Origin: a virus
Virus record (IMG/VR): IMGVR_UViG_3300028608_000014
Span: 1 to 62,294 of that record
Direction: 5' to 3' (one strand)
Length of the DNA: 62,294 bases
Numbering within the stretch: the first letter of the stretch is position 1; every line of letters begins with the position of its first letter. Below are positions 24,237 to 62,294 of the stretch, one piece after another. The notes beneath the pieces were generated by a model. That model worked only from the letters and a program-made list of their open reading frames with translations, did no database searches and was not told the origin of the DNA. Made by a program: the position numbers and the translations under genes.

Positions 24237-25088
24237 TTACTTCTTGATGATGAGACGGTTGCCGATGTAGATGGTGGCGTCCGGGCCGGGCAGCCCGTTC
24301 AGCCGGGCCAGGTACGCGGGGTCGAGCCCGTAGTAACGGGCCACGGAGCGGATCGTGTCCGGGCCTTCGATGACCCAGACCAGCGGACCCGGAATCCAGA
24401 TCTTCTGCCCCGGGGTGAGCTGGTTGGGGTTGATGTTGTTGTAGGCCGCGATCTGCGCCACGGACGGCCCGTTGTAGTATTTCTGGATCTTGCCCAGCGT
24501 GTCGCCCTTGGACACCACCCAGTGCAGGTCCGAGGCGGGGTACACCTTGGGCTTCTGGACGGCGGGCTTAGGCTTGGTGGCCGGTGTGCTCGATGCCGGC
24601 ACCACCACGGGCTTGGCCTGCTTTGCGGCAACGATCTGCTTGGCGCGGGACACCAGCCACGGGATGTGCTGCTCCCACACCCCGGGGCACTGCGTGGAGG
24701 TGAACCTCTTGTGCGGGTAGGCGACAAGGGGCACACCGTTGAGGATGTGCTGGTCCGCCATCAGCTCGGCCACGGTCTCCCGGTCGGCGGCCGTACAGCG
24801 CGGATTACATTCGATGGACACCAGGTTCAGGTTTCCCCATCCGGCACCGCCGTCACCCTGCGCCCACGCGACGTTCCTGGGACTGACAAGGCAGGCAACG
24901 GTCCCGGCCTCGGCAACAAAGTTCACCGATGCGGACTCCTGCCTGCCCCGTTCGAGCAGCACGTTGACGATCCCCAGGAACGTCGGCTGCTGGGCAGGAT
25001 CACCCCACCAATGGATTGCGAAACCCTTCGGCACCATGGCAGGCCCGACGAACGTGCTGCTGTACTGTTCAAGCAGTTTGTAGGTCAT
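24237..25088 (-). CDS. Endolysin: N-acetylmuramoyl-L-alanine amidase with two LysM domains
   Basis: 283 residues; start MTYKLLEQY at 25088 follows GGGGAAG. The N-terminal 165 residues form a PGRP/Amidase_2-type zinc amidase: FAIHWWGD gives a first His ligand, and AYPHKRFTSTQCPG the second His and the Cys. A Pro/Ala/Lys linker (about 165-187) leads to two LysM repeats (about 188-235 and 238-283), which bind peptidoglycan. It cleaves the amide between muramic acid and the peptide stem at lysis. Confidence 0.92.
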   Translation of the reverse strand: MTYKLLEQYSSTFVGPAMVPKGFAIHWWGDPAQQPTFLGIVNVLLERGRQESASVNFVAEAGTVACLVSPRNVAWAQGDGGAGWGNLNLVSIECNPRCTAADRETVAELMADQHILNGVPLVAYPHKRFTSTQCPGVWEQHIPWLVSRAKQIVAAKQAKPVVVPASSTPATKPKPAVQKPKVYPASDLHWVVSKGDTLGKIQKYYNGPSVAQIAAYNNINPNQLTPGQKIWIPGPLVWVIEGPDTIRSVARYYGLDPAYLARLNGLPGPDATIYIGNRLIIKK

Positions 25089-25566: not shown

Positions 25567-26062
25567 CGGGACCGTCCTCCATGTAGTGATAAAGGGCCGC
25601 GCGGTTCTTGTCGGCCATCCGGATCATGACCATGCGGGCACGGACGGCCAGGCAAATCACCACCGCGAACATCACGGCCACGGCCCGCTGCTGGCCCGTG
25701 ATAATCCACAGCCCAGCCATGAGGGAAGCGAACACCGCCGGACCTGCGAACAGCAGCCACAGGCCGAACATCTCGACGCGGAACCCCCTGCGCCGGTTCT
25801 GCGCGCCCATGATGAGGCCGGTAAGGCTGATCCAGAACCCAAGAATCGTGACGGCACACCAAAGCACCAGGAAAAAGACGGTGGTGTTGTCCCGGACGGA
25901 CGGAAGCTGCACCAGAGGGACCATGAGCAGAATCCCGAGGGATGCCTTGAACTGGATGAACGCCCTATCGACGGGACTCAGCGCCGAAAGTGCCCGGTGC
26001 ACGCCTCTCAGGGCTCCCCGGACCCGGCTATCCGAAGCATTACTGCCATCAGGAATCGCCAT
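25556..26062 (-). CDS. Polytopic membrane protein, 168 aa
   Basis: Four likely membrane helices (about residues 42-58, 62-85, 97-118 and 122-142) with a basic loop RNRRRGF. It precedes the coiled-coil membrane protein and overlaps its start by 11 bp. In other actinophages the lysis cassette carries such extra membrane proteins. No catalytic motif. Confidence 0.7.
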   Translation of the reverse strand: MAIPDGSNASDSRVRGALRGVHRALSALSPVDRAFIQFKASLGILLMVPLVQLPSVRDNTTVFFLVLWCAVTILGFWISLTGLIMGAQNRRRGFRVEMFGLWLLFAGPAVFASLMAGLWIITGQQRAVAVMFAVVICLAVRARMVMIRMADKNRAALYHYMEDGPDEA

Positions 26063-26117
26063 TTATTATTTCCCCCTTGCAGCAGACTTCACTAAACACA
26101 AGTCTACAGGGGTGGGG

Positions 26118-26681
26118 TTAGGCGGTGGCGTACATCAGGGTCACCCGGAGGTTGGCTCCCCGCATGTGCACAGTGTCCGAGCGCCCGGCACCAACCCGGA
26201 GCCGCCCGTAGATGGTGTCCCCGACATCAAGCATCTGCGCCGAGGTAATGGTGGCGTTGGAGAAGGCCTCGGGGTCCGACACAAAGGGCTGGGACACATC
26301 GGCCACGTTCCCGAGCCAGAGCGACAGGTCGATGGGCACGGTGTCCCCGAAGTCCGCCGTCGCGGTCAGCACGATCAGGTAAAGGCCCGGCCGCTTGACC
26401 TTCACCACGCCGCCCGCGAGGTCCATGTTGGTGACGTAGTTCCGGTAGCCGGTCCTCTGGACCGGCAGGATGATGCCCGTATCCGCGATGGTGCCCGCCC
26501 CGGTGATGCTGAACGACCCGCCCAGGGTGGAGGCGGACACGCCTGCGCGGGCCTCCTGCCGGGCCATGCGCACGCCGAGGCCCTGGCTGATGGACTCGGC
26601 CATCATGGGGGACCAGACATCGGCTTCGAGGGTGTCATCCTCATCCGGTGTCCAGATGCCGTCTGCGTTTACGTTTCCCAT
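26118..26681 (-). CDS. Minor tail protein, C-terminal beta domain
   Basis: 187 residues. An N-terminal 50-residue adhesin-like start is followed by a beta-rich domain (residues 60-187, alternating hydrophobics, LYLIVLTATADFGDTVPIDL), consistent with a trimeric fibre tip. It is the last gene of the tail-fibre module, a position typical of receptor-binding subunits. Confidence 0.65.
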   Translation of the reverse strand: MGNVNADGIWTPDEDDTLEADVWSPMMAESISQGLGVRMARQEARAGVSASTLGGSFSITGAGTIADTGIILPVQRTGYRNYVTNMDLAGGVVKVKRPGLYLIVLTATADFGDTVPIDLSLWLGNVADVSQPFVSDPEAFSNATITSAQMLDVGDTIYGRLRVGAGRSDTVHMRGANLRVTLMYATA

Positions 26682-26690
26682 GGGAGCGTC

Positions 26691-27953
26691 CTATTCTGCT
26701 GCGGTAATGTTGATGTCAGCCGAGGGGTAGACCCCGGATTCCCCCAGCGCTGAGATGGAATTGAACTCGCTGACAAAGGCGTCCGCCGGGATGGTGAGCC
26801 GGGCATCGAAGGTGCCGTCCGACTCGGCGTTGATGGTGTTCAGCATGTCCCCGCCGACGTACAGGTCCACGGTCTCGCCGGGGGTAAAGCTCTGGCCGAT
26901 GACCTGCACCACGGAGCCGATGGGCGCGGTGGAGGGCACCTGAATCCTGCGGTTCTGGACGGCCGTGGAGGTGGAGGCGTCCGGCTCTCCGGTCCAGGAG
27001 TAGCTGTAGTCGGGGTCGTCAGGGGTTGCGCCGTTCCAGCTCCCCAGCGTCCAGTTCATCATGTCCCCGGACACCAGCAGGTCATCGACGTAAATGGTGG
27101 CCGAGCCGAGCGAGGGCAGCGTGACGCCAAGCGCCAGTGCGGTGTCCAGCTGCGGGCCGTAAAAGCCGTCGTCGCCGCCCGAGCCTGTGACCTGCAGCTG
27201 CTGCCACACACCCGGCTCCAGGTACACCCGGTCCTGGTAGTTGGTCTGCCGGTAGCCGTCGTAAACAAAGTCAAAGTAGGCATCGACGGCGATGCCCGTG
27301 TCATAGGTCATCACCCAGACGCGGTACGTGTGGGCCGTTAGGAGGTTGCCGAACGACATGATGGTGACGCCGGACTCGGGGATGATGGTGACACCGTTGT
27401 AGTAATCGACCCTCATGCAGCTGCCGCCCCCGCGCCCGCCCGAGGACAGGCTGGCGACGGCGGTGGACGGGACGTTGTTCCGGGAGTCATCCCACGCCCA
27501 GTTGCCGGTGCTGTTCTCGAAGCGCGGGTCGGTGATGACGTTGGTGTACGTCCGGAACCAGCCCCAGGTGTCTGCCGGGAGGAAGCCAGCCTCCGGATCG
27601 GGCACGTAGTAGGAGGCCGGATCGCCCAGCGGGAACTCCTTGGGCAGCTGCACGGTGTCATGGGCGCGGGCCACCCATTTGCCGCGCTTGCCGTCGAACG
27701 TGAGCAGATCCCCGTCCTGCGCGTCCCGGATGTCCAGATCCTGCAGGGAGGGCAGCTTCAGCTGCACCGGGTTGTCCACCGACGGCGTAGCGCCCGTGTA
27801 AAGCCCGCGTCCGGGGTTGGCGATGTCCAGGCCGAAGTCGCTGCAGATCCGGCGCGCCATTTCCTGCAGCTGCGCCAGGGTCTCCAGCGCCTTGCTGACC
27901 TCGCGCGCCCAGTCGTTTGCGCCTCCGGGCAGGCCCATGTTGTTCTGGCCCAT
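26691..27953 (-). CDS. Minor tail protein with carbohydrate-binding-like domain
   Basis: 420 residues. The N-terminal helical part (1-60) is probably the virion-attachment end. Residues about 140-300 look like a galactose-binding/CBM jelly roll (TDPRFENSTGNWAWDDS, LEPGVWQQLQVTG), and the C-terminal 90 residues look like an Ig/IPT-type fold (SFTPGETVDLYVGG). Likely involved in host-wall binding. Its start overlaps the preceding gene by one base. Confidence 0.75.
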   Translation of the reverse strand: MGQNNMGLPGGANDWAREVSKALETLAQLQEMARRICSDFGLDIANPGRGLYTGATPSVDNPVQLKLPSLQDLDIRDAQDGDLLTFDGKRGKWVARAHDTVQLPKEFPLGDPASYYVPDPEAGFLPADTWGWFRTYTNVITDPRFENSTGNWAWDDSRNNVPSTAVASLSSGGRGGGSCMRVDYYNGVTIIPESGVTIMSFGNLLTAHTYRVWVMTYDTGIAVDAYFDFVYDGYRQTNYQDRVYLEPGVWQQLQVTGSGGDDGFYGPQLDTALALGVTLPSLGSATIYVDDLLVSGDMMNWTLGSWNGATPDDPDYSYSWTGEPDASTSTAVQNRRIQVPSTAPIGSVVQVIGQSFTPGETVDLYVGGDMLNTINAESDGTFDARLTIPADAFVSEFNSISALGESGVYPSADINITAAE

Positions 27954-48580: not shown

Positions 48581-50074
48581 TCAATACATCGAAATAGACA
48601 TTTCCTGCTCGGCCAGAAATTGCTCCATGCCGATCTCGAAGGTTTCCCCGATTTTCAGTTTCGACACCGGATCTTTCGGGTCCACCGGCAGGTCCGCGCA
48701 GGCGTACATGGCCGCGTCGGCAAAGTCGGGGGACTTCACGCCGCGCCGGATCATGTCATCCTTGGACTCGATCTGGACGGCCCCGCGCGGGCTGAATTTG
48801 TACTGGATGCCCTCCAGCTCCTCCTTCAGGGACTTGTCGCCGTACTCCATGTCGATGTGGCCGGTGGCCATCTTCTCGCGCAGGGTGTCGTAGGCGTAGG
48901 CGCGGTAGTTGGCCCACTTGTCCAGGTCCGGGGACGCCGCATTGCCCACCAGGCCGATGGTCTCCCAGCGCGAAATGGCCAGCCGGGTCACCTGGTCATA
49001 GACGCCCGCGCCGATGCCCACGCCGTCGATCCGGACCTCATCGACGCCCAGCTTGATGGCCCATTCCACGATCCGCTCGGCCGTCTCCACGGTGTCCTTC
49101 TTGCCCCACTTATCCACCAGGCGGAGCACACCGTCGTGCCAGCTGTAGAGCACCGTGTAGTCCGCGCCGAAGCGGGCGATGTCGCAGCCGAGCTTGGGCT
49201 TGGATTCCGGGTCAGGCCGCAGCGTGGTGTTGATGGCGTTGGCCAGGGTCTTCTGGCTGAACAGCGTGTTGATGCCCTGGCCGGGGAACTCGCCCAGCAC
49301 CTTGGACATGTAACGGGCCGAGTCCTCGCCCCACTCGCGCTTCTTCTCCTCCACCCATTCGGGGGAGATCAGGCCGTCCTTGGCGTCCTCGGGCAGGTAC
49401 TCCCCGGTGAAGTTGGGGGTATCGAAGGCCGAGATGGTGATCTTGGACCAGCCGTTGTCGTCGTCCGCGAAGATCTTGCCCAGCTCGGAGGCGGGATCAT
49501 CGGGGTTGGCGATGGCCAGGATGCGGTCATTTTTACCCGTGGTGATGGTGGCAACGCCGGTCCACAGCGATTCCGCGATGCCGCAGGCCTCATCGAGCAC
49601 CGCGAGGACACCCTGCCGGCGGTGGATGCCCTGGAAGCCGTGCTGATTGGTGTCCGAGGGCTTGCGGCCGAAGCCCACGATACGGCCGCCGACGTCCTTC
49701 CACTCATCGTCCATGGTGATCTTGCCGGGCAGGTCGTACTTGGCCGACAGGGTGCGCAGGTACTCCCAGAGGATCTTGTTGACCTGCTCATAGGTGGGCG
49801 CGGTGGAGACCACGATGGCGTCCAGCTCGATCCGGGTGTCCACCCACCAGGCGATGACCACCGAGGCGGTGAAGGACTTGCCCGAGGCGTGGCAGGACTT
49901 GACCGCCGTTTTCTTGTTGGCGATCAGTGAGTTGGCGATCTCGATCTGCTTGGACCACAGGTGGATGCCGAGCCGCTCCCGCGCCCAGAGCGCGATGTCA
50001 TGCCGGTAGCAGTCCAGTTTCTGGCGGTGCGCGAGCCCGAGGGCCGCGCCCTGCATGGCCGCATGGATGCTCAT
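48581..50074 (-). CDS. terL: Terminase large subunit
   Basis: 497 residues. Walker A SCHASGKSF (60-68), Walker B AVLDEACG (158-165) and coupling SNPD-like ANPDDPAS. The nuclease half has CDIARFGADYTVLYSW (about 298-315), with an Asp at the usual catalytic position, and DEVRIDGVGIGAGVYDQV. It drives ATP-dependent packaging and cuts concatemers. Confidence 0.95.
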   Translation of the reverse strand: MSIHAAMQGAALGLAHRQKLDCYRHDIALWARERLGIHLWSKQIEIANSLIANKKTAVKSCHASGKSFTASVVIAWWVDTRIELDAIVVSTAPTYEQVNKILWEYLRTLSAKYDLPGKITMDDEWKDVGGRIVGFGRKPSDTNQHGFQGIHRRQGVLAVLDEACGIAESLWTGVATITTGKNDRILAIANPDDPASELGKIFADDDNGWSKITISAFDTPNFTGEYLPEDAKDGLISPEWVEEKKREWGEDSARYMSKVLGEFPGQGINTLFSQKTLANAINTTLRPDPESKPKLGCDIARFGADYTVLYSWHDGVLRLVDKWGKKDTVETAERIVEWAIKLGVDEVRIDGVGIGAGVYDQVTRLAISRWETIGLVGNAASPDLDKWANYRAYAYDTLREKMATGHIDMEYGDKSLKEELEGIQYKFSPRGAVQIESKDDMIRRGVKSPDFADAAMYACADLPVDPKDPVSKLKIGETFEIGMEQFLAEQEMSISMY

Positions 50075-50304
50075 TCGCTCTCCCTCACCACCTTCAGGTG
50101 GTACTGCAGAGTCTCGAACGCGGCGGTGTCCTCATACACGTCCCACATCAGGTGCAGCAGGTCCAGCGTCAGGCCGTAGGAGTTGCCCATTGCAGCGAAC
50201 AGCCGGGTCTTGATGGCGGCCCAGTCCGGCTCCGCGCCGTCGCGTGCGTAGAACAGGTCCAGGATCTCGCAGGCGTCGGGGGTGAAATGCTCGGCCGCGC
50301 TCAT
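50071..50304 (-). CDS. Hypothetical protein between terminase subunits, 77 aa
   Basis: Helical and acidic (EILDLFYARDGAEPDWAAIK...). It overlaps both neighbouring terminase genes by ATGA, so it is probably part of the packaging unit. No family recognised. Confidence 0.65.
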   Translation of the reverse strand: MSAAEHFTPDACEILDLFYARDGAEPDWAAIKTRLFAAMGNSYGLTLDLLHLMWDVYEDTAAFETLQYHLKVVRESE

Positions 50305-50852
50305 GCTCCCTGCTCCTCGGGGTGCGCCGAGAGGGCCTTCTGCGCCTCGGCAAGGAAGGTGGTGTCGAAGTTGTCCAGTACCTCGCCCCGGATGGCCTTC
50401 AGGGTCTTGCCCTTGTCAAAGGCGATCTCCAGCTGCTGCTTGAAGTTGCCCTGCAGCGTCATCATGGCGTTCAGAATGATCTGTGTCTGGGCCTTGGTCA
50501 GTTCCACCAGGGCGTCCTGGGCCTCGGTCTTACGGGCCTTGTTCAGCGCCTGCAGGGCCTCGATCCGGTCGAAAATCTTCAGGAACAGTTCCAGATCCTC
50601 GGCCGTGGCGGCGGAATTGGCCCGCTGGTGTGCCATCACGAGGAGCTTTTCGAGCCGGATCAGGTGCAATACCCACTGTTCCTCGGGGCTCATCACCGCG
50701 CGGGACTCGATGTATTCTTTCCACGCCCGCACAGCCTCATCGACGGAAATGTCCTGCTCGGTCGCAATTTCCTCGAAGGTATAACCCTCGCTGCGGCGGT
50801 CCACCACAATCGTGGTGAGCATATCCACGGTGTTTTCGATGTTTTCCGCCAT
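50301..50852 (-). CDS. Terminase small subunit-like protein
   Basis: 183 residues. An HTH is likely in the first 50 residues (EGYTFEEIATEQDISVDEAVRAW), followed by two long helices (60-110 and 120-165), as in small terminases that recognise the packaging site. Located two genes before the large subunit. The ATG lies 6 bases after a -10-like TAAGCT. Confidence 0.75.
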   Translation of the reverse strand: MAENIENTVDMLTTIVVDRRSEGYTFEEIATEQDISVDEAVRAWKEYIESRAVMSPEEQWVLHLIRLEKLLVMAHQRANSAATAEDLELFLKIFDRIEALQALNKARKTEAQDALVELTKAQTQIILNAMMTLQGNFKQQLEIAFDKGKTLKAIRGEVLDNFDTTFLAEAQKALSAHPEEQGA

Positions 50853-50856
50853 GGAA

Positions 50857-50878
50857 CCAGCTTATTACAAATGCACAT
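50857..50878 (-). promoter_or_regulatory. Late promoter-like motif at terminase start
   Basis: Minus strand ATTTGTAATAAGCTGGTTCC precedes the ATG at 50852; TAAGCT then six bases then ATG fits a leaderless transcript. Confidence 0.45.
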
Positions 50879-50913
50879 CTGCAATTCATAAATACAGAGG
50901 CATCAATTACAAA

Positions 50914-50947
50914 GCAAAAGGCTCCGGCCCTTATGAGGGCCGGAGCC
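50914..50947 (-). terminator. Minus-strand terminator
   Basis: GGCTCCGGCCCT (50920-50931) pairs perfectly with AGGGCCGGAGCC (50936-50947); on the minus strand TTTTGCTTT follows. It sits just downstream of the 24-aa membrane peptide gene and upstream of the terminase gene. Confidence 0.85.
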
Positions 50948-50985
50948 TGCGCCCGGATGGCATGGGGGTTACCGGACGCAGGGGC

Positions 50986-51060
50986 TCAGATGCGCCGGAC
51001 CAGCAGAACAATCAGCACGATGATGGCAACAACGACGAGTATGTACATCAGGTTGTCCAT
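50986..51060 (-). CDS. 24-aa single-span membrane peptide
   Basis: ATG at 51060, stop at 50986; starts MDNLMYILVVVAIIV and ends LVRRI, one hydrophobic helix with a basic end. TAAACT lies 6 bases before the ATG, fitting a leaderless mRNA, and a perfect terminator follows. Too short to be certain. Confidence 0.5.
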   Translation of the reverse strand: MDNLMYILVVVAIIVLIVLLVRRI

Positions 51061-51176
51061 GGATTCAGTTTACAGGACTCGATACAGAACCCCGCCGCGC
51101 CGATAAGCACCCTTATGACAAGCTGGCGGCCCGGAAAGCGCCGCTGACCTGCAGCAACACGCCCGTTAAAGCAGCA

Positions 51177-51205
51177 AAGCCCGGACCTTGGCGGAGTCCG
51201 GGCTA
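51177..51205. other. 9-bp hairpin before the structured region
   Basis: AGCCCGGAC (51178-51186) pairs with GTCCGGGCT (51196-51204). It may insulate the structured region that follows from transcription upstream. Confidence 0.5.
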
Positions 51206-51210
51206 CTGTG

Positions 51211-51720
51211 TTGCTTACCAATAAAAATTGAATAACTAGAGTCTATCGTAAGGTCTTGGCGGACAACACGATAGGTCCAGGGCGGCGTGTCGGAAAAACG
51301 CCGGGCAGTCCCTGCGGGAACCACGGGCAACCGTGGCGGACGTGTCCCAGCGGCTAACCCACCGCGTGTAGCGAGAGGCCCAATTGAAGGCCAGAGGGGT
51401 TTCCTAGAGCAGTCCCCTGCGCGTAAAGGCAGACCAGGAGCGACGAGGGCGCAGCGGTGCGCCTTGCCGGGGAGGCGGTGTGCCCCGGAGGCGACTGCTC
51501 ATACCCCGGTCCTGCGCTCCGAGTAATCCCCGAAGCGACGGCGAAAAATTTTTTCGTCGGCCCCCTGCAGGGGGGCTACTCTGTCGTGAATACCTCACCT
51601 CCACGACAGGGGCTCCCGCCCCAGGCCCTGGCGGGCCTCCCCCGGCAGCCGCACCGCGCAAGCGCGGCCCGGCACGTAGGTCTTGTCCCACCTAACGCTG
51701 GACTACTAAGGGTGGAGACT
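51211..51720 (+). ncRNA. Candidate large structured RNA
   Basis: About 500 bases without a credible gene but dense in perfect hairpins: CTATCGT/ACGATAG (51243, 51268), CGGCGT/ACGCCG (51283, 51298), CCACGG-GCAA-CCGTGG (51321-51336), GGCGCA-GCGG-TGCGCC (51448-51463), CCGGGG/CCCCGG (51467, 51483), TGTCGTG/CACGACA (51582, 51602) and CCGCGC-AA-GCGCGG (51654-51667). GAGCAGT/ACTGCTC (51407, 51494) and GGAGCG/CGCTCC (51437, 51515) interleave, as in a pseudoknot. TTGCTT (51211) and TAACTA (51233) could be a promoter. Strand is inferred from that. Confidence 0.5.
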
Positions 51721-51767
51721 TTCAAAAGGTGACCCACCTTAAGTGACGCGCGCGCGAAAAACCGTGC

Positions 51768-51956
51768 TCATTCTTCCGAATCGAGCACGAAGAACAGCCC
51801 ATCAGCAACCGCTTCCTCGACCCAGAATCTGGTCCTGGGTGTTGTCCGTTGCCGGGCGATTTCCTCCAGCCGGGCCCTGTCATTGCCGACGGAGTACACC
51901 ATCCGTCCGGTGCCGTCCGTCCGCTCCGCCATCAGCAGGTACCTGTACTCAGCCAT
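51768..51956 (-). CDS. Hypothetical protein, 62 aa
   Basis: GGAGGGAC precedes the ATG. The sequence starts MAEYRYLLMAERTDGTGRM, an alternating pattern suggesting a small beta fold. Last gene of the partition operon; overlaps the RHH gene stop. Function unknown. Confidence 0.6.
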   Translation of the reverse strand: MAEYRYLLMAERTDGTGRMVYSVGNDRARLEEIARQRTTPRTRFWVEEAVADGLFFVLDSEE

Positions 51957-52239
51957 CTGTCCCTCCGAGCAAATGGCCGTATTTTTCCTCCAGCAGCGGC
52001 CACAGCTCGCGCTCCACGAACTTCTGCTGGCTGATCTCCTGCAGGTCCGCCGCGGCCTTCAGCAGCTCCAGCTGGGACTTGCTCAGCCGCAGGTTGAAGC
52101 CGTGGGACTTCGGCTCGCGGTTCCGCTGCTTCCACTTGGGCTCATCGGCCTTGGTGGGCCGCTCCGGCTTCTCGGCCGCGTCCCCGAAGGCCTCGATCTC
52201 CTTCTCCATCTCGGGGGTCGGCTCCCTCATCTTCACCAT
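51949..52239 (-). CDS. Ribbon-helix-helix protein, probable centromere-binding ParB
   Basis: 96 residues. N-terminal 50 are charged and disordered; residues about 50-88 fit a ribbon-helix-helix: strand GFNLRLS, helix KSQLELLKAAADLQ, then SQQKFVERELWPLLEEKY. RHH proteins pair with small ParA ATPases in type Ib partition systems, bind helically phased repeats and repress the operon. It overlaps the parA stop and lies about 0.9 kb from the 11-bp repeat array. Confidence 0.75.
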   Translation of the reverse strand: MVKMREPTPEMEKEIEAFGDAAEKPERPTKADEPKWKQRNREPKSHGFNLRLSKSQLELLKAAADLQEISQQKFVERELWPLLEEKYGHLLGGTDG

Positions 52240-52868
52240 GACAGGGCCTCCTGCAGCAGCAGCTGGATCTCGGCTTTGGCCTTGCGATCCCGCGTTTCCA
52301 CCGCTCCCTTGCCATCACCCATCGCCTTGCGGAAGACCTTGCGGTCGTGCAGGACCGTCCTGGCCAGCACCAGATCCGGGTATTTCGTCATGTAGGTGCG
52401 GGCCTCGCCCTCCTCATCGTCCCAAACGTGCGGAGATACCCGATTCAGCACGCCCATGAGCTTCAGGTCCGGGTTGAACTTCCGTGCCTCCTTGACGGTG
52501 GCCAGCAGCGACTTCGAGGTGTCCAGATCCGGCTGGGAGGGCAGCAGCGGTGCCAGCAGCAGATCGCAGGCCGTCATCGCGGTGCGCAGTTCCTTGGAGT
52601 CCTTCCCGGCGGCGTCCACCAGCACGACGTCGTGGGCCTTGTCGAGGTTTATCAGTTTGGTGTAGAGGTTGCCGCTTACCTGTTCGGTCTTGATGGGCGC
52701 TCCGCCGGCCTCCACGCGGTCGGCGGCCCAGATGCTGGTCGTGTGCACGGTCGGGTCCGCCTCCACGATGCAGACTTTTCGGCCCCGGCGCTGCAGCTCG
52801 GCGGCGAGGTTGACGGTGATGGTGCTCTTGCCGACGCCGCCCTTGTGGTGGCCGATGAGGATCAGCAC
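52233..52868 (-). CDS. parA: ParA-family partition ATPase
   Basis: 211 residues, GTG start. Deviant Walker A GHHKGGVGKST (6-16) with the signature Lys, and Walker B-like VLVDAAGKD. The short length without an N-terminal HTH is typical of type Ib ParA, which partners an RHH protein. It would distribute the prophage plasmid to daughter cells. Together with lack of an integrase it suggests extrachromosomal lysogeny. Confidence 0.9.
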   Translation of the reverse strand: MLILIGHHKGGVGKSTITVNLAAELQRRGRKVCIVEADPTVHTTSIWAADRVEAGGAPIKTEQVSGNLYTKLINLDKAHDVVLVDAAGKDSKELRTAMTACDLLLAPLLPSQPDLDTSKSLLATVKEARKFNPDLKLMGVLNRVSPHVWDDEEGEARTYMTKYPDLVLARTVLHDRKVFRKAMGDGKGAVETRDRKAKAEIQLLLQEALSW

Positions 52869-53102: not shown

Positions 53103-53340
53103 TGTAGTGCTTTGGTAGCTGTGCAGTAGCTCTATGGTACCCCTTTGGTAGCTAAAGGGTACCCATAGCGTAGTTATTTCATACCAGAACGGTAGTTGTT
53201 GCATAGCACTACCAAACTAAAACGGTAGCTCTTTGGTATTGATCTGGTAGCACGATGGTAGTTATGTGGTAGTACTCTGGTACCACTTTGATAGTTCTAC
53301 GGTAGCGATTATGGTAGTTCTACGGTAGCGGTAGGGTAGC
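53103..53340. repeat. Helically phased 11-bp repeat array, candidate parS/centromere
   Basis: GGTAG[CT] or close variants recur every 11 bp. Units start at 53103, 53114, 53125, 53136, 53147, 53158, 53169, 53180, 53191, 53202, 53213, 53224, 53235, 53246, 53257, 53268, 53279, 53290 and 53301, then one 12-bp step to 53313, 53324 and 53335. The TA of each unit is almost invariant; 13 of 22 units have GGTA. The array is AT-richer than its surroundings and lies in the promoter region of the parA operon. Confidence 0.85.
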
Positions 53341-53365
53341 TGCCCGTCCGCCGGGCCGCAGGGCA

Positions 53366-57857: not shown

Positions 57858-58258
57858 CCGCCCCGGAGCATCCCGGTGCCCGGCTAAAACTGGAACTGGA
57901 GAAGCGGAGCTGGGCGCAGAAAGAGCTGGTGGAGATCCTGGAGCGCCCGGCGCAGATGGTCAGCGAGATCATCGGCGGCAAAAAGGAGATCACCAGGCAG
58001 ACAGCGGCGCAGCTCGCGGCTGCCCTGGACACCGAGCCGGAGTTTTGGCTGGTCCTGCAGGACAACTGGGCGCTGCACCACCTGACAAACGATGCGGCCT
58101 TCCAGAAGTCGCTGGAGGAGATCCGGGCCCGCGCAGAGGAGATGGCCAACAGACCGCCCCGGCACAACCACCGCGCCTCCCGGGACATCAAGCCGCAGGG
58201 TGAGTGCCCGGCCTGCGATGTGTATTGGGATGGCCTGAAGGCAAGGGGGATGGCATGA
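57854..58258 (+). CDS. HigA-like XRE HTH protein, 134 aa
   Basis: Residues about 10-70 match the HigA-type XRE fold: SWAQKELVEILERPAQMVSE, IIGGKKEITRQTAAQLAAAL and EPEFWLVLQDNW. The C-terminal 45 residues include ECPACD. HigA antitoxins usually pair with HigB; no toxin gene is adjacent, so this is an orphan antitoxin-like regulator or a phage repressor. Confidence 0.8.
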   Translation: MTAPEHPGARLKLELEKRSWAQKELVEILERPAQMVSEIIGGKKEITRQTAAQLAAALDTEPEFWLVLQDNWALHHLTNDAAFQKSLEEIRARAEEMANRPPRHNHRASRDIKPQGECPACDVYWDGLKARGMA

Positions 58259-58485
58259 ACTGGTTCGGGGAGCCCTGGCCCAGCGCCACGCTGCGCGCCC
58301 CCGTCTGCGAGGATGACGCGCTGCGGGTGCCGCCCCCGCCCGCCGGGGAACTGTGCGTGATGTGCGGGAACCGTTTCGCGGCCGGGGACCGGGGCATCCT
58401 GCTGCCGCACGTCAACGGCACCCGGCAGGTCTCGATGCGCTACCTGCACCTGGAATGCCTGCTCGGCAACGTCGGCGTGTCCTGA
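58255..58485 (+). CDS. Zinc-binding small protein, 76 aa
   Basis: Start MNWFGEPWPS at 58255. CVMCGNRF, followed 25 residues later by HLEC, gives a CxxC...HxxC zinc-finger pattern seen in small conserved phage proteins. Coupled to both neighbours by short overlaps. Confidence 0.65.
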   Translation: MNWFGEPWPSATLRAPVCEDDALRVPPPPAGELCVMCGNRFAAGDRGILLPHVNGTRQVSMRYLHLECLLGNVGVS

Positions 58486-58709
58486 TGCGGCGGCACACGG
58501 TGGCCGACATCGGGGAACTGCAGGCCCTGATCCGGTGGGAACTGCGGGCGCAGGGCAGGACGCAGACGGCGATGGCCGAGCACCTGGGCTTCAGCCAGAA
58601 GCACGTCAGCCAGATGCTCACCGGCAGGACCAGCATCTCGCTGGCGAACCTGTTCGAGATCTGCGCCTACCTCGGGCTGTCCGTGACGATTGACCCTGCG
58701 GCGAAATAG
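58485..58709 (+). CDS. XRE-family HTH protein, 74 aa
   Basis: Start at 58485 overlaps the previous TGA. GRTQTAMAEHLGFSQKHVSQ, MLTGRTSISLANLFEICAYL and GLSVTIDP make a complete Cro/CI-type helix-turn-helix. Third XRE protein of the genome and another repressor candidate. Confidence 0.85.
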   Translation: MRRHTVADIGELQALIRWELRAQGRTQTAMAEHLGFSQKHVSQMLTGRTSISLANLFEICAYLGLSVTIDPAAK

Positions 58710-58747
58710 CCGCGATTCACTTGATCCATGCCCCGCACGGAATGCTC

Positions 58748-59077
58748 TCACTGCTCCGGGGCCAGTTTCCCCTCCCGGTACAGGGCGTGCTTGTGCCGGC
58801 GGTGCTCCCGGATCGCCGCGGCGTGCTTCTCCGGGTCATAGTAGCGCCCGTCCCTGCGGCGCTCGGCGTACTGCGCCTTGGCCCGGGCCTCCTTCTCCGG
58901 GTCCAGGATGAACGAGATGAGCCGCCGCGAGACCCCGAAGTGCTCCGCGAGCCGGCGCTGGGACGCACCTAACGCGTGCTGGGTCCGGATCTCCTCGCGC
59001 TGGGCGTCGCTGAGCTTGCGCCGCCGGTCGTCGGCGGGCCGGATGTACTGGCCGGGCTTCTCGGACTTGTAGGGCAT
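58748..59077 (-). CDS. HTH DNA-binding protein, 109 aa
   Basis: Residues about 20-55 contain RKLSDAQREEIRTQHALGA and SQRRLAEHFGVSRRLISFIL, a resolvase-type HTH. The C-terminal half is Arg/Lys/Tyr-rich (YAERRRDGRYYDPEKHAAA). Likely a DNA-binding regulator. Confidence 0.75.
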   Translation of the reverse strand: MPYKSEKPGQYIRPADDRRRKLSDAQREEIRTQHALGASQRRLAEHFGVSRRLISFILDPEKEARAKAQYAERRRDGRYYDPEKHAAAIREHRRHKHALYREGKLAPEQ

Positions 59078-62282: not shown

Positions 62283-62294
62283 CCTGCCCCCGTC
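62283..62294. repeat. 12-bp terminal direct repeat, right copy
   Basis: CCTGCCCCCGTC, identical to bases 1-12. Confidence 0.6.

Follow-up and report, generated by a model that had tools for sequence, protein, structure and literature searches.

RNA-dependent replication origins of extrachromosomal prophages and a probable distant variant

Around 20% of the cluster A phages carry parABS in place of an integrase and the majority of those lack repA (PMC7157519). It was shown that extrachromosomal replication of the prophage requires the ncRNA-expressing region adjacent to parABS and that this region suffices for it (Wetzel 2020, PMC7157519). In these non-RepA phages the RNA is expressed upstream of parA and in the reverse direction, and about 600 bp, with no protein required, are enough for plasmid replication (PMC7157519). 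For RedRock and Gladiator it was reported that the region alone, without ORFs, replicates autonomously, and replication still occurs if stop codons are placed in the overlapping ORFs (PMC7157519). Deletion of the RNA region in Alma and LadyBird resulted in normal lytic growth and unstable lysogens, and removal of parABS alters the copy number (PMC7157519). According to the authors, extrachromosomal temperate actinophages belong almost exclusively to cluster A, and the term "secondary structure" is absent from the text of their report (PMC7157519). Among the large, pseudoknotted RNAs of phages, the classes GOLLD and ROOL are found in the vicinity of tRNA islands (PMC12286853).

Gene context of the locus

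The window, i.e., the complete virus record of 62,294 bp analyzed here, has its late genes on the minus strand (Table 1). A gap of 915 bp (50853-51767) separates the small-terminase-like gene from the next ORF and holds the stretch 51211-51720, for which a sequence-only reading had proposed a large ornate ncRNA and had stated that no gene fits; indeed, no ORF with any coding signal was found within the gap. A 24-codon ORF at 50987-51061 on the minus strand, encoding the hydrophobic peptide MDNLMYILVVVAIIVLIVLLVRRI, lies just before the intrinsic terminator that precedes the small terminase gene. Positions 1-12 and 62283-62294 of the record are identical (CCTGCCCCCGTC), are located 11 kb from the RNA region and look like a cohesive end or cos site of a complete genome. 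Amigo (NC_041949) has gene sets of equal length at both ends (370-1335 and 57959-58924), which would fit a direct terminal repeat of some 1 kb or longer, in contrast to the 12 nt of the window despite the related terminase.

Table 1. Features of the window in and around the structured RNA (strand left empty where none is assigned)
Feature	Position	Strand	Basis or remark
Large terminase (TerL)	48581-50074	-	
Small-terminase-like gene	50301-50852	-	
Intrinsic terminator before small terminase gene	50919-50948	-	
Conserved part of structured RNA, candidate RNA-based origin	51159-51546	+	L146 alignment from CACGCCCGTTAAA onward
5' hairpin AGCCCGGAC-CTTGGCGGA-GTCCGGGCT	51178-51204		near-identical in L146
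AT-rich stretch	51205-51242	+	sequence
Hairpin CTATCGT...ACGATAG	51243-51274	+	
Hairpin GGCGTGTCGGAAAAACGCC	51284-51302	+	unchanged in L146
Hairpin ACGG-GCAA-CCGT, GNRA-type loop on + strand	51323-51334	+	L146: stem kept, letters changed
Stem P1, 5' strand (GAGCAGTC)	51407-51414	+	covariation, 18 sequences
38-nt stretch with AAAGGCAGACC motif (AGAAGGACAGCCC in mycobacteriophages)	51415-51452	+	identical in L146
Pseudoknot helix, 5' strand (GCAGACC)	51429-51435	+	
Variable hairpin GGCGC-AGCGGT-GCGCC	51448-51463	+	L146: GGCGCG-GTGA-CGCGCC
Variable hairpin CCGGGG...CCCCGG	51467-51488	+	L146: ACGGGGG...CCCCCGT
3' module	51487-51546	+	covariance model R1 (window and L146 left out)
Stem P1, 3' strand (GACTGCTC)	51493-51500	+	covariation
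Pseudoknot helix, 3' strand (GGT-C-CTGC)	51508-51515	+	
Hairpin P3 CGCT-CC-GAGTAATCCCC-GA-AGCG	51515-51537	+	family-wide loop GAGUAAUnCCC
Hairpin-rich 3' tail	51537-51720	+	51547-51720 not conserved in L146, the nearest relative
96-aa ORF immediately following parA, presumed partner (ParB/CBP)	51949-52239	-	position
parA-like partition ATPase	52233-52868	-	phrog_164, 6.8e-39; Pfam AAA_31
11-bp iterons GGTAGnnnnnn, about 20 copies; candidate parS (centromere)	53103-53345		upstream of par genes

On its other side the gap is followed by a partition cassette, directed opposite to the RNA. The 96-aa ORF of this cassette has no protein family match, and parA together with this ORF is similar in DNA to plasmids of Pseudarthrobacter and Paenarthrobacter, which suggests that the host of the phage is probably a member of the Arthrobacter group. 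Domains of tyrosine integrases (PF00589), serine recombinases (PF00239) and Rep3 initiators (PF01051) were found nowhere in the record, and the Pfam hits obtained with 50 window proteins included no Rep family. The window phage is probably a phage-plasmid, for which a novel initiator protein unlike the known Rep families is conceivable.

The closest relatives of TerL are those of L014, L015 and L017 (52-56%), followed by the Arthrobacter Amigoviruses (49%). The same genomic slot holds tRNA genes in the former and tRNA genes plus another structured RNA in the latter, and the window RNA was found in none of the terminase, small-terminase and ParA relatives examined. As the closest TerL relatives lack it, the RNA does not travel with the terminase. 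The partition cassette is the meaningful neighbor of the RNA and the terminase nearby is incidental.

Other RNA features were observed at this slot in the relatives. Immediately ahead of the small terminase gene, L014 (1-290), L015 (4550-5180) and L017 (4590-5180) possess small arrays of tRNAs and tRNA-like remnants that end in a terminator of the GGGGCCTTTGCTTTG type. Amigoviruses, including Molivia (L004:5253-5575) and Amigo (L005:4300-4640), encode, between their tRNA genes and the late genes, a structured RNA of some 300 nt that carries no RNA annotation, with 70% identity between Molivia and Amigo, two-sided changes at 12 of 84 predicted pairs and a strong terminator at its end; it has no Rfam match and is partly annotated as hypothetical protein. 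An identity of this RNA with that of the window was discarded, its core pattern matching only within a part of the window that appears to be coding.

Relatives of the RNA in phages and plasmids

The gap contains at least eight local stems, where at least seven had been counted before, among them the six local hairpins listed in Table 1 between 51178 and 51488 and two more at 51537-51558 and 51581-51609. Compared to shuffled sequences the folding energy is only mildly unusual (z of -2.2 on the plus and -3.2 on the minus strand). For a structured RNA the number of stems is by itself not decisive; conservation and covariation are.

The conservation of the region is too patchy for direct blastn, which returned no relatives among phages and plasmids. 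L146, a viral contig of 10 kb, was identified with a 17-nt pattern taken from the mid-region core, and a 20-mer pattern from the 3' tail yielded no relative. L146 is 77% identical over 412 nt (window 51145-51546), with the 38-nt stretch unchanged and the surrounding stems altered on both sides. Of the extent originally proposed (51211-51720) the richness in hairpins stands, but conservation begins about 50 nt further upstream and ends near 51546. In L146 the RNA sits in a gene context unlike that of the window, and its translations read as ParA-like and RHH-like genes about 1.5 kb from the RNA.

The slot that is syntenic in the relatives holds tRNA genes, and the hairpins could accordingly be chance products of a decayed tRNA array; however, neither ARAGORN nor Rfam detected a tRNA or tmRNA in the window and the RNA is strongly conserved with L146 despite the different gene context, so that we give this explanation hardly any credence.

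The 3' core of L146 led to short intergenic matches in the Gordonia phages Schiebs and Daredevil, in the Mycobacterium phage Phlei and in three Streptomyces plasmids. A pattern built from those matches was found in 19 viral contigs, mostly isolate phages of about 50-53 kb with the same organization. In Phlei, the RNA adjoins ParA and an Arc-like repressor, is located upstream of ParA and directed opposite to it, and blastn with the Phlei RNA returned 128 phage records, 125 of them of Mycobacterium. Two further contigs were discarded, L147 as a chance pattern match and L165, in which the sequence is coding-like and the match looks like chance.

In the Streptomyces plasmids NZ_CP109058, NZ_CP108823 and, more weakly, NZ_CP063809, the 3' core with the GAGUAAUCCCC loop is found in an intergenic gap. 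The non-coding gaps of the plasmids span 1.2-1.5 kb (L151:2078-3540, L152:2301-3494, L153:2269-3617) and contain extra conserved domains besides the core; in NZ_CP109058 the gap extends over roughly 31.05-32.5 kb and in NZ_CP108823 over roughly 20.5-21.7 kb. Two of the plasmids encode a MobF relaxase and a partition gene and have no annotated Rep, and no Rep domain was found among ten proteins of one plasmid. The plasmids thereby share with the window the 3' core with its loop and a partition gene, but differ by the much larger gap, by conjugation genes and by the lack of phage genes, none of which were seen; the function of their RNA is putative.

Covariation and strand of the RNA core

The core shared in 18 sequences consists of the stem P1, a pseudoknot and the hairpin P3 with the loop GAGUAAUnCCC. 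P1 encloses the 5' arm of the pseudoknot helix and the partner arm lies outside of P1; the interleaved pair of stems that had been noticed in the sequence before is real. Over the 18 sequences and the 19 pairs of P1, pseudoknot and P3, 94.4% of the cells are paired compared to 66.7±1.7% with shuffled partners (0/2000), whereby the alignment of the core blocks by eye inflates the paired fraction and the shuffle control leaves that bias in place. Two-sided changes occur at 14 of the 19 pairs, and the RNA thus passed the covariation test in related phages that had been proposed for it. In the window copy 18 of the 19 pairs can form, but the pseudoknot and P3 share C51515, i.e., two pairs compete.

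For the 3' module, a covariance model (R1) was built from 16 sequences excluding the window and L146. It matches the window at the expected place (51487-51546) with 32.6 bits (E 2.7e-6), the next window match having 9.8 bits, and L146 with 43.3 bits (E 6e-9), although these E-values are rough as R1 is short and can score 29.8 bits by chance within a genome of 1.9 Mb. That match, in a Microbacteriaceae genome, reads as ordinary coding sequence and was treated as chance. The Streptomyces plasmids are matched with 38.9 and 34.4 bits. A scan of 297 genomes with a stricter filter returned nothing and carries little weight. A leave-out sequence profile has window 51505-51537 as its top match (E 2.3e-4; next E 1.6), and a relaxed 3' module matches once in the window and not at all in 2.6 Mb of other loci. 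The hairpin-rich stretch is therefore an evolutionarily conserved structured RNA, and the original suggestion of a large ornate ncRNA is borne out by conservation and covariation.

The core pairs comprise 17 G.U cells and one A.C cell, which argues that the RNA is read from the plus strand, and the orientation to parA that follows from it is the one seen in the published RNA-seq data. When only window and L146 were folded together, RNAalifold showed no preference for the plus over the minus strand (z of -3.4 and -5.9). An RNA of the minus strand belonging to the late operon was first favored by synteny with the tRNA arrays and by a slightly better fold, and was dropped on the G.U/A.C test.

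Comparison with mapped mycobacteriophage origins

The blastn matches in three mycobacteriophages coincide with or fall inside the published "non-RepA" origins (PMC7157519, Table 4): 24465-24894 (minus strand) with the origin 24464-25062 in Gladiator, 25874-26247 (minus strand) with 25875-26522 in LadyBird and 26596-26794 (minus strand) with 26448-27060 in Alma. By its sequence and predicted pairing, the window RNA is homologous to the origin RNAs of the non-RepA parABS mycobacteriophages, a similarity that is limited to the core of about 150 nt and partly linked through L146. The origins of RedRock, Alma, LadyBird, Gladiator and Et2Brutus share with the window the P1/pseudoknot/P3 core with the loop GAGUAAUnCCC, the location in a non-coding gap beside a parA cassette and the orientation opposite to parA. 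In neither the non-RepA cluster A phages nor the window was an integrase or a Rep3-type initiator detected.

In contrast to these systems, the window phage does not belong to cluster A, its TerL being 49% identical to that of an Arthrobacter Amigovirus, and its ParA is only 28% identical to Phlei ParA. The window RNA is located downstream of the par operon, whereas it is upstream of parA in the mycobacteriophages, which is a positional and not a mechanistic feature. Its 5' domain and 3' tail are distinct from the cluster A RNAs and shared only in part, best with L146. The window RNA is most likely a distant variant of the known RNA-based prophage origins, far outside cluster A.

The homology to mapped origins bears on two further explanations, both touched on in the sequence-only reading. 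A GOLLD/ROOL-like, cage-forming RNA in the late-operon slot would fit the size and the pseudoknot of the window RNA and the tRNA genes, in Amigoviruses together with another structured RNA, found in this slot of the nearest TerL relatives. The genomic context is different, however: the window has no tRNA and the relatives of the RNA are found beside parA or on plasmids. Rfam searches at the gathering threshold and at E<=10 returned no credible family, GOLLD and ROOL included, and the homology to the mapped origins contradicts this assignment, which we regard as very unlikely. The RNA region immediately precedes the small and large terminase genes, as a packaging (pac/cos) region could, but the likely cos site lies at the record ends, covariation with G.U pairs marks an RNA and not a DNA element, and the relatives are found mid-genome by parA in mycobacteriophages, where they coincide with the mapped prophage origins, and on plasmids that show no phage genes. 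A role in packaging is thus highly improbable.

Proposed function in plasmid prophage replication

By analogy with the mapped origins, we infer that the window RNA is transcribed and functions in replication. It is likely, in our assessment, that this structured ncRNA of the plus strand forms the core of a replication origin free of a Rep protein, on which the phage would rely while it is maintained as a plasmid prophage of low copy number. Transcription in the lysogen would start from the AT-rich stretch that follows the 5' hairpin, with the 5' end of the RNA predicted near 51205-51245. This stretch is possibly a promoter or the 5' end of the RNA, judged by its composition; no good match to a sigma-70 promoter was found in it. 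The 5' hairpin reads as terminator-like on the minus strand (stem, then TTTGCTGCTTTAA) and would act as terminator against opposing transcripts, thereby shielding the RNA. The transcript would then adopt the core fold of P1, pseudoknot and P3 hairpin, the loop of which is nearly invariant, and in this form would start DNA synthesis, either as a primer similar to ColE1 RNA II or as a trigger that opens the origin DNA. ParA, its 96-aa partner and the 11-bp iterons would segregate the plasmid copies. ColE1 RNA II, in which a structured RNA and not a Rep protein starts plasmid replication, serves as working analogy; no sequence relation to it was found, no RNA I counter-transcript was identified in the window and priming is putative.

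Alternatively, the RNA may regulate replication and not initiate it, as an antisense or a copy-number/incompatibility RNA acting on the par or the late operon, with a protein initiator elsewhere in the phage. The antisense orientation to its neighbors, the DNA polymerase, primase and helicase encoded by the window phage itself, and the altered copy number upon parABS removal in the published systems (PMC7157519) are in line with this. However, the autonomous replication of the homologous region without ORFs in RedRock and Gladiator and the replication left intact by stop codons in overlapping ORFs (PMC7157519) argue against it, and we consider a purely regulatory RNA unlikely.

A possible wider class of RNA-based origins

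Carriers of the RNA include the window phage, whose structural module resembles that of Amigoviruses, further phage contigs and Streptomyces plasmids. What goes beyond the origins described so far is the type of phage, the fold of the RNA and the occurrence of family members on plasmids. Comparison of these sequences suggests that the core shared by phages and plasmids marks a wider class. We see about even chances that this is a broad actinobacterial class of protein-free replicons with a single pseudoknotted RNA core as initiator, to which conjugative-type Streptomyces plasmids without recognized Rep belong as well as the phage-plasmids found in Mycobacterium, Gordonia and Arthrobacter-group hosts. 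In a literature search confined to open-access papers no earlier description of that breadth was found.

The core of 18 sequences, a candidate new RNA family, is a concrete model comprising P1, the pseudoknot and the P3 loop and makes the question of how such RNAs start replication directly testable. RNA-based origins offer a possible route to new low-copy vectors for Actinobacteria. The findings suggest a portable and widespread class of origins that act without Rep and would escape replicon typing that relies on Rep genes.
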